DNA from: a virus
Virus record (IMG/VR): IMGVR_UViG_3300006919_000224
Location: 1-32,245 of that record
DNA: 32,245 bases
Strand: one strand, 5' to 3'
The notes below the pieces were generated by a model. That model was not told where the DNA came from and did not search any database. It was given only the letters and a program-made list of their open reading frames with translations. Positions 5,855 to 29,841 of the stretch are shown here, in pieces (the first letter of the stretch is position 1; each line of letters starts with the position of its first letter). A program made the position numbers and the translations under genes.

Positions 5855-6590
5855 CTGCAGAGAGGAAGCTAGCGTCAATTTCTACTAGAACTTCTTCAGA
5901 GAACCTAAGAGCAACGTCAGTTGACTTTTTTATAGCCCCAATATACTCTATAATTTTATTATTTAGCTTTAAAGGTAGGTTATTTACTATCTCCCTACGT
6001 TCATATGCACTTATATCACTAAACGCGACCTCAATATCACCTATTTTAATACTATCAATATACTTAGTTGTTTCATAAGAAACGACAATATCTACACTTT
6101 GTTTAACTTTCTCTTGCTGATCAGCGATCTTGGCCAGCTCTGCTTCAAGCTTTTTATTAACCTCAGTATCTAATGCTAAATTTGGTACTTTGAGCTTTGC
6201 AGTAATATTGTCATATGAAACCGTTTGTGATAGTTTTATATCAGTTTTTTTAATAGAAGGAAGGTCGTTTAAATCGTATGACTCGCCTTTAATATCAAGT
6301 TTAGATCCGATAGATTCTTTCCTAAGGCCGATCAAAATAGCCGGCTTATCTATGATCAAGAAATTAATATCTTCTTTACAGTTATTAATAATAATACTAT
6401 TAAGAATATTTGCACGTTTGATTACACCATCAACACCATCAAAAGCAGAACGTAGAAGCTCTTTTTGCTGGTTAACACTCGCCAATTTAAATGATGCATT
6501 TTTACCTGTTGATGGTACTTTAATTGCAATAGTATTGGCATCATTAATTTCTTGAAGATTATTCAAGAAACTCTTAACATTAGAATCCAT
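5850..6590 (-). CDS. baseplate hub assembly protein, gp26/gp51-like (copy 2)
   Basis: Probable hub subunit or hub-assembly chaperone of the T4 baseplate family. The 246-residue protein shares a diagnostic stretch with its upstream neighbour: VAFSDISAYERREIVNNLP here and VVFSDLTNDERLVVMDNLP in the neighbour. Both are followed by a helix with the pattern IxEYIGAI/IKKFIQTI, so the two are tandem paralogues. The N-terminus keeps the KVPSTGKNASFKLASV strand-turn-strand seen as LPSGKKCRVEELS in the neighbour. A central helix (about 142-165) is charged. The gene has its own late octamer 5 nt before ATG even though it lies only 8 nt after the previous stop. Confidence 0.55.
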   Translation of the reverse strand: MDSNVKSFLNNLQEINDANTIAIKVPSTGKNASFKLASVNQQKELLRSAFDGVDGVIKRANILNSIIINNCKEDINFLIIDKPAILIGLRKESIGSKLDIKGESYDLNDLPSIKKTDIKLSQTVSYDNITAKLKVPNLALDTEVNKKLEAELAKIADQQEKVKQSVDIVVSYETTKYIDSIKIGDIEVAFSDISAYERREIVNNLPLKLNNKIIEYIGAIKKSTDVALRFSEEVLVEIDASFLSAD

Positions 6591-23824: not shown

Positions 23825-24076
23825 ATGAAAATAGTATATTGTGAATGTGGAAGTCTGGTTAGACCTGCGCGGGTAGAAGCTGGTTTTACTAACTGTATTA
23901 GATGTGCTAATGAGAATCCTGTTGAACCACCTAAAGGGGTAATGATTTATTCACATAAGACTGGTGGAGAGCTGGAAGTTCATTCAGCTGAGTCATGGCG
24001 TGAGAAGAAGAAGTATTATGTTCCTAATGGTGCGAGGAGTGCTCTTAAGAACTTTAGTAAGAACGTTTGCGCTTAA
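23825..24076 (+). CDS. small zinc-ribbon-like protein (83 aa)
   Basis: C6-x-C8 and C24-x2-C27 in YCECGSLVRPARVEAGFTNCIRCA form a probable four-Cys zinc site, similar to the DksA/TraR-type or zinc-ribbon fold. The rest is basic and helical (AESWREKKKYYVPNGARSALKNFSKN). Zinc-ribbon peptides in phages often bind RNA polymerase or nucleic acids; that role here is inference. Driven by promoter copy 1, so probably early or middle. Confidence 0.75.
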   Translation: MKIVYCECGSLVRPARVEAGFTNCIRCANENPVEPPKGVMIYSHKTGGELEVHSAESWREKKKYYVPNGARSALKNFSKNVCA

Positions 24077-29479: not shown

Positions 29480-29497
29480 AAGGAACTTAACTATAAT
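29480..29497 (+). promoter_or_regulatory. GGAAC-N5-TATAAT promoter, copy 10
   Basis: AAGGAACTTAACTATAAT, then 6 nt to ATG 29504. It also supplies the most likely transcript for the tmRNA-like RNA at 29609. Confidence 0.85.
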
Positions 29498-29503
29498 ATG
29501 ATT

Positions 29504-29599
29504 ATGAACATTGAAAAAATAAAGGATAAATTGATTGTATTATGGATTATGTCAGTATCTATCTACATAGGGTTAGATTTACTACAGAAATTTGGTTAA
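29504..29599 (+). CDS. 31-aa membrane peptide upstream of tmRNA-like RNA
   Basis: MNIEKIKDKLIVLWIMSVSIYIGLDLLQKFG: one short hydrophobic segment (10-27). ATG at the exact +1 position of promoter copy 10. It ends 9 nt before the tmRNA-like domain, so both are read on one RNA. Confidence 0.6.
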   Translation: MNIEKIKDKLIVLWIMSVSIYIGLDLLQKFG

Positions 29600-29608
29600 A
29601 ATAACAAA

Positions 29609-29673
29609 GGGGGTGACGTTGGTTTCGACGTAATAAAAAATTACGGATGAGGGTTCAAATCCCTCCACCTCCA
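29609..29673 (+). ncRNA. tmRNA tRNA-like domain without a tag message (65 nt)
   Basis: Folds as the complete tRNA-like domain of tmRNA. Acceptor stem of 7 bp: GGGGGTG (29609-29615) with CACCTCC (29666-29672), third pair G-U, then A at 29673. D-region ACGTTGGTTTCGA has no D stem and matches the tmRNA 5' signature TGGNTTCGACG. T arm GAGGG-TTCAAAT-CCCTC (29649-29665). In tmRNA the P2 helix leads into the message and pseudoknots; here CGTAAT (29629-29634) pairs with ATTACG (29640-29645) around five A residues, so message and pseudoknots are absent. G3-U70 plus A73 are the alanine identity marks, so charging by AlaRS is expected. CCA is not encoded. Function unknown. Confidence 0.8.
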
Positions 29674-29675
29674 TT

Positions 29676-29683
29676 AATAAATA
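29676..29683 (+). promoter_or_regulatory. late-type promoter octamer AATAAATA
   Basis: AATAAATA, then CTAAT (5 nt), then ATG 29689. It begins 2 nt after the discriminator base of the tmRNA-like RNA. Confidence 0.65.
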
Positions 29684-29688
29684 CTAAT

Positions 29689-29841
29689 ATGGCATTTGAA
29701 CATTTACATCTAGATGATTTAGGTAGAATCATTTATAAATTCGCTAGATCGGTTGGATATACCGAAGAATGGTGGTTTTCATACGATAGCCTAAGTAACA
29801 AGACAATCGATAAGTATATTAAAGAGAGAAAGCCATTCTAA
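29689..29841 (+). CDS. small protein (50 aa), late-type, unknown
   Basis: MAFEHLHLDDLGRIIYKFARSVGYTEEWWFSYDSLSNKTIDKYIKERKPF: helical, with a WWF aromatic patch. The open frame runs back to 29647, but that part is the T arm of the RNA. The octamer sets the start at 29689. The stop TAA is immediately followed by the GTG of the next gene. Confidence 0.75.
   Translation: MAFEHLHLDDLGRIIYKFARSVGYTEEWWFSYDSLSNKTIDKYIKERKPF

Follow-up and report, generated by a model that had tools for sequence, protein, structure and literature searches.

Trans-translation is nearly universal in bacteria, and little is said in the literature searched of phage counter-measures to it. The closest described phage system is the "TLD only" tmRNA of mycobacteriophage DS6A, i.e. 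a tmRNA with little beyond its tRNA-like domain (TLD), known here through the accounts of Mao et al. (2009) given in PMC4131195 and PMC11915505; by the same accounts a molecule similar to the DS6A RNA strongly inhibits E. coli tmRNA whether charged or not, perhaps through titration of SmpB. A curated database of 2025 holds nine "standard, no CDS" sequences among 97,179 tmRNAs, and tag-less mitochondrial tmRNAs are conserved together with SmpB (PMC11915505). A crystal structure cited in PMC3929946 (4ABR) shows a TLD fragment with SmpB and EF-Tu bound to a stalled ribosome. No description of a wider phage family of TLD-only RNAs was found in the literature searched, which left out most subscription papers; what was formerly one TLD-only phage tmRNA, listed as a curiosity, now has more than 100 distinct versions that standard annotation missed.

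The DNA analyzed here (the window), a 32,245-base virus record, encodes a T4-type terminase and T4 baseplate and contractile-sheath proteins. Among isolated phages its terminase is nearest to those of cyanophages, a Pseudoalteromonas phage and Rhizobium phages, with identities of just 32-38%. Among these T4-like genes is an RNA of the DS6A kind, i.e. a phage-encoded TLD with little else, whose features and surroundings are as follows.

29480 to 29497, plus strand: promoter-like unit AAGGAACT-N4-TATAAT, upstream of the 31-codon ORF and the element; one of eight copies in the window
29504 to 29599, plus strand: 31-codon ORF, stop 9 nt before the element; read from the sequence and conserved in the related contigs L005, L037 and L045
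29609 to 29673, plus strand: TLD-only mini-tmRNA, mature 5' end to A73; RF00023 match and family covariation
29609 to 29615, plus strand: acceptor stem 5' strand GGGGGUG, with G3 at 29611; sequence, and covariation of base pairs 4-6
29616 to 29629, plus strand: D-loop region ACGUUGGUUUCGAC; sequence
29624 to 29629, plus strand: UUCGAC, including the equivalents of E. coli U17 and G19; contacts from PMC8363625
29629 to 29645, plus strand: connector (P2) hairpin of 6 bp with an A5 loop, where message and pseudoknots normally sit; sequence
29645 to 29648, plus strand: GGAU, the A at 29647 being the equivalent of E. coli A334; sequence and PMC8363625
29649 to 29665, plus strand: T arm GAGGG-UUCAAAU-CCCUC; sequence, and covariation of T1-T3
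29666 to 29673, plus strand: acceptor stem 3' strand CACCUCC, with U70 at 29670, then A73; sequence
29689 to 29841, plus strand: small ORF (MAFEHLHLDD...) starting 15 nt past the element; no family match

The full element, GGGGGUGACGUUGGUUUCGACGUAAUAAAAAAUUACGGAUGAGGGUUCAAAUCCCUCCACCUCCA, has a 7-bp acceptor (GGGGGUG/CACCUCC) with the alanine identity pair G3-U70 (29611/29670) and A73 at 29673, a D-loop, UUGGUUUCGACG, in which the D-loop GG and UUCGAC are both present, and a T arm of 5 bp with the loop UUCAAAU. Only a 17-nt hairpin, a 6-bp connector stem CGUAAU/AUUACG with its A5 loop, lies between the TLD halves, and there is no tag reading frame, resume codon or stop codon. The Rfam tmRNA model RF00023 matches 29609-29676 end to end (model 1-374) at 65.5 bits (E 1.4e-23), against a gathering score of 47 bits, with 312 of the 374 model positions deleted and the pseudoknots absent from the alignment. 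An earlier note on this DNA had listed the same TLD parts (7-bp acceptor, G3-U70, A73, D-loop signature and T arm), had placed a 6-bp stem and A5 loop where message and pseudoknots would be, and had named the covariance model as a check; sequence and model agree with it on all of these points. ARAGORN calls no tRNA and no tmRNA gene in the window, the anticodon arm and cloverleaf looked for in a tRNA being absent. A chance match and a mis-called tRNA are both ruled out, by the RF00023 E value and by the absence of an ARAGORN tRNA call. In E. coli tmRNA U17 and G19 contact SmpB, and A334 forms with A15 and U17 a pocket for SmpB Trp122 (PMC8363625). CCA is not encoded after A73 of the window element, where UUA follows, so that CCA addition would be needed after 3' processing.

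The element region is shared with contigs L005, L037 and L045, whose flanks are 84-89% identical to those of the window and whose acceptor, GGAU and T arm are identical to it. The L037 and L045 elements differ from that of the window solely by one A in the loop; in L005 two changes fall in the D-loop region, and the connector is symmetrically reduced, 4 bp in place of 6, and still paired. The folding energy of the window element is low (z = -3.0 vs dinucleotide shuffles). Folded on its own, the window RNA reaches its lowest energy with a rival D-loop hairpin in place of the connector stem, at -24.6 vs -22.9 kcal/mol, and this preference of 1.7 kcal/mol for a non-TLD fold counts against the decoy reading that is set out below; in L005, which lacks the rival hairpin, the tmRNA-like fold has the lowest energy, and the connector of the window element is supported despite the rival by covariation in the family. 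The promoter-like unit at 29480-29497 probably drives the transcript that holds the mini-tmRNA. Its eight plus-strand copies lie at 24075, 25926, 28727, 29264, 29480, 30011, 31351 and 31695, the first with TATCAT for TATAAT, and most of them a few nt 5' of an ATG; if the box serves as a -10 element, these small genes would give mRNAs with hardly any leader.

Relatives of the element were sought in viral contigs by pattern. A first pattern of D-loop signature and T arm separated by a short gap matched 48 contigs, about 27 of them with a full acceptor. Broader scans with gaps of 9-39, 40-70 and 71-101 nt, in which TTCGAC and U70 were fixed, gave at least 145 loci and at least 119 distinct elements (gap up to 45 nt) of 59-87 nt, and among the matches listed 89 of the 119 are 77-80 nt long. 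The longer-gap scans yielded far fewer elements than the short-gap scan among the matches listed, so that the short form appears as a discrete class and its length is not an artefact of the search. Most members combine a connector of 7-8 bp with an asymmetric loop and a short hairpin, for example CCGCAYGCGG; a bare connector hairpin is found in the window element and about a dozen others. A CCA end is encoded in 36 of the 119 distinct elements among the matches listed. None of these 119 family members is found by ARAGORN, and the RF00023 gathering score is exceeded in 21 of the 23 phage records searched. A Pistol ribozyme match (50.7 bits, gathering score 34.5) lies on the minus strand of L021 at 5916-6012, about 2.2 kb from the mini-tmRNA there.

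The stems of the mini-tmRNA covary strongly across relatives. Real and shuffled pairing were compared in 92 representatives less than 88% alike, the pairs being counted by segment with a script, as MAFFT put the family's 5' acceptor strand out of register, and positions fixed by the pattern being left out. Acceptor base pairs 4-6 are paired in 100% of the representatives (44-68% shuffled), connector base pairs 1-6 in 80-97% (41-46%) and T-arm base pairs 1-3 in 100% (39-61%), with four to six standard pair types at each of these covarying pairs. G3-U70 occurs in 119 of 119 distinct elements among the matches listed, although the pattern also permitted A3-U70. The main scan required U70, so controls with C70 and with A/G70 were run on their own; each added one further distinct element with a full acceptor (L507 for C70; for A/G70 a U3-A70 element on the three contigs L530, L532 and L542), and the invariance is thus not a search artefact. 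The mini-TLD on these three contigs is identical, GGUUGUG/CACAACC, and with U3-A70 is not expected to accept alanine. The equivalent of A334, the adenine before the T arm, which the pattern left free, is likewise present in all 119 elements among the matches listed; TTCGAC was fixed in the main scans, and its conservation there is no independent evidence.

An integration site would retain the 3' part of a tmRNA gene only. Both TLD halves are intact and covarying in this family, which rules out an integration-site fragment. tmRNA genes are frequent integration sites of genomic islands and prophages (PMC11915505), which would speak for a decayed tmRNA gene or integration-site remnant; this origin can nevertheless be given hardly any credence, as the pairs covary across intact halves, the lengths cluster at 77-80 nt, and the one of 23 phage records with a full tmRNA (G010) has the mini form too. 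Also considered was a full tmRNA gene elsewhere in the phage, from which the element would have decayed: there is no full tmRNA in the window record or in the 76-kb relative L005, both of which are possibly incomplete, and for the family such decay is refuted by the covariation. The relatives thus bear out the earlier note, which had looked to them for compensatory stem changes (found in acceptor, connector and T arm) and for retention of G3-U70, and had weighed a decayed copy of a full tmRNA as the contrary outcome.

Among isolated phages the element is carried by Streptomyces phages LuckySocke and GiJojo, where it is identical to L201, with relatives at 78-81% identity in Streptomyces phages pSt2308, Alone3 and BRock and one at 74% in Pontimonas phage phiPsal1, upstream of the capsid gene. 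It is nearly always unannotated in these carriers; in the four Streptomyces phages examined it lies unannotated within a tRNA array, adjoining tRNA-Val, and in GiJojo a hypothetical-protein call overlaps the match. BLAST of five further elements against isolated phages added no isolate with a full-length match. Since isolated Streptomyces phages, which have laboratory hosts, carry the element, deletion and tagging assays are feasible. A tRNA lies within 300 nt of 26 of the 145 loci, and within 3 kb of 33, among the matches listed. In the 23 phage records searched with the tmRNA model, a full tmRNA accompanies the mini form in G010 alone (123.6 kb); it is 392 nt long (L543 189-580), has an ARAGORN tag reading frame, SPEYRIRLLTNTKW, and lies 31 kb from the mini-tmRNA (L544/L184). 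SmpB was found in none of the 23 phage records checked. Of 794 genomes from two bacterial phyla, three contained a match to the pattern, two without an acceptor partner and the third on the Mycobacterium MAG contig that seeded the search, from a MAG that also has its own full tmRNA; with the mini-tmRNA on this one seed contig alone across the 794 genomes, a bacterial origin was rejected.

The placement of the window element, 9 nt past one ORF and 15 nt before the next, and of the phiPsal1 relative upstream of a capsid gene, is what would be seen if the TLD merely let RNase P and 3' processing cut a transcript between two genes, i.e. if it were a cis-acting processing signal. This is very improbable: an ordinary tRNA-like hairpin would suffice for such cutting, the invariant G3-U70 and the SmpB contacts would not be expected, and other copies sit among tRNA genes.

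The window RNA is probably a phage TLD-only tmRNA that is processed, completed with CCA and charged with alanine, and that binds SmpB and inhibits host trans-translation. An anti-rescue decoy appears to be the best reading, and it is a function that we infer for the window phage. The processing, charging, SmpB binding and inhibition that we infer in this phage's host would run as follows. RNase P and 3' tRNA processing would probably cut the mini-tmRNA from an operon transcript; its CCA would be completed and alanine charged by AlaRS through G3-U70; the D-loop and the variable-region adenine would bind SmpB, and the acceptor and T arm would bind EF-Tu. The RNA would compete with host tmRNA for SmpB, and the alanyl-TLD-SmpB complex may enter stalled ribosomes, offering no message to resume on, for a net inhibition of trans-translation during infection. 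Of the earlier note's anti-rescue reading, what stands is a TLD-only tmRNA with experimental precedent in the DS6A-like RNA, as related in PMC4131195 and PMC11915505; the novelty that it implied does not, DS6A having been known before.

The reported inhibitor needed no charging, so that the invariant G3-U70 is in tension with a pure SmpB sponge and challenges the titration model, in which charging should not matter. Judging from the sequences, charging must matter for something, and the perfect G3-U70 appears to favour either a charged decoy or a tag-free acceptor. The latter would be a form of rescue in which the charged mini-tmRNA and SmpB enter the stalled ribosome and take the nascent chain, with drop-off or hydrolysis to follow and phage proteins left untagged, i.e. 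a phage-favourable replacement of host tmRNA such as has been guessed for the message-less mitochondrial tmRNAs. We know of no step, however, by which a ribosome whose peptide has passed to a message-less TLD would be freed. Charging is apparently selected, given G3-U70 in all 119 listed elements together with A73, and pure SmpB titration needs none of it; the conservation of the tag-less mitochondrial tmRNAs with SmpB also fits (PMC11915505). Tag-free rescue nonetheless seems unlikely, since what such an RNA is reported to do in E. coli is to inhibit tmRNA (by the accounts in PMC4131195 and PMC11915505).

A separate scan with the D-loop left free gave 84 distinct RNAs, in 20 of which TTCGAC directly follows GGT, and in many of which CGAC is shifted or altered; 45 of the 84 have no CGAC nearby, and 29 of these 45 have a connector helix of at least 6 bp. 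Such RNAs (L571 and others, e.g. GGGGGUGAUUGGUAAGCC...) are TLD-like, with G3-U70, T arm and connector stem, and lack the CGAC D-loop signature. They may form a second class, one without SmpB binding; given their existence SmpB binding is possibly non-uniform in the wider class and may not be what unites its members. A tentative and somewhat doubtful extension is that message-less alanine-identity RNAs are a large and diverse phage class, with the DS6A-like SmpB decoys as one branch and a second branch that lacks the SmpB-binding D-loop signature and keeps G3-U70, T arm and connector. If true, the two-branch class would be a general alanyl-RNA tool for manipulating stalled ribosomes or tRNA-sensing enzymes, and not a mere SmpB sponge.

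That the acceptor, the T arm and the alanine identity vary least, that the wider set keeps them without CGAC, and that some copies lie within phage tRNA arrays would also suit a decoy for AlaRS, EF-Tu or a host defence tRNA nuclease, i.e. a mimic of charged tRNA without an anticodon. This target is decidedly unlikely for the window RNA, since a generic tRNA mimic needs neither the D-loop GG and UUCGAC of the window nor the A334 equivalent of the 119 listed elements. Viral contigs also hold an intermediate tmRNA-like class, about 136 nt long, that falls between mini and full tmRNA (L391 1623-1759, L451 11477-11613, L488 2097-2233, L490 10689-10823, L382 4026-4161, L433 272-407 and L466 3220-3356); in L391, L451, L488 and L490 it has a short frame that opens GCA AAT ACG and stops at the same place.

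The window element shares with standard bacterial tmRNA (ssrA, RF00023) the G3-U70 acceptor, D-loop signature, variable-region GGA and T arm, and differs in having no message, stop codon or pseudoknots and a length of 65 rather than about 360 nt. The message-less mitochondrial tmRNAs (RF02544; jakobids) and the ~65-bp CDS-less plastid tmRNAs of Mallomonadaceae likewise keep the TLD without a tag frame (PMC11915505); unlike the phage RNA they are organellar, the mitochondrial ones usually permuted, and they are thought to serve the organelle's own translation with SmpB. Artificial TLD fragments (4ABR, as cited in PMC3929946) show that such a fragment fits the stalled ribosome with SmpB and EF-Tu, but are engineered. 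The DS6A RNA, by its published description, is closest, being phage-encoded with little beyond the tRNA-like domain and neither tag nor pseudoknots; it is the single known phage case and comes from a mycobacteriophage, whereas the window element belongs to a T4-like tailed phage and has a bare A5-loop hairpin as connector. The TLD-only kind of tmRNA is thus already known from DS6A, and what is added here is the size of the family, its covariation, the conservation of its alanine identity and its spread.
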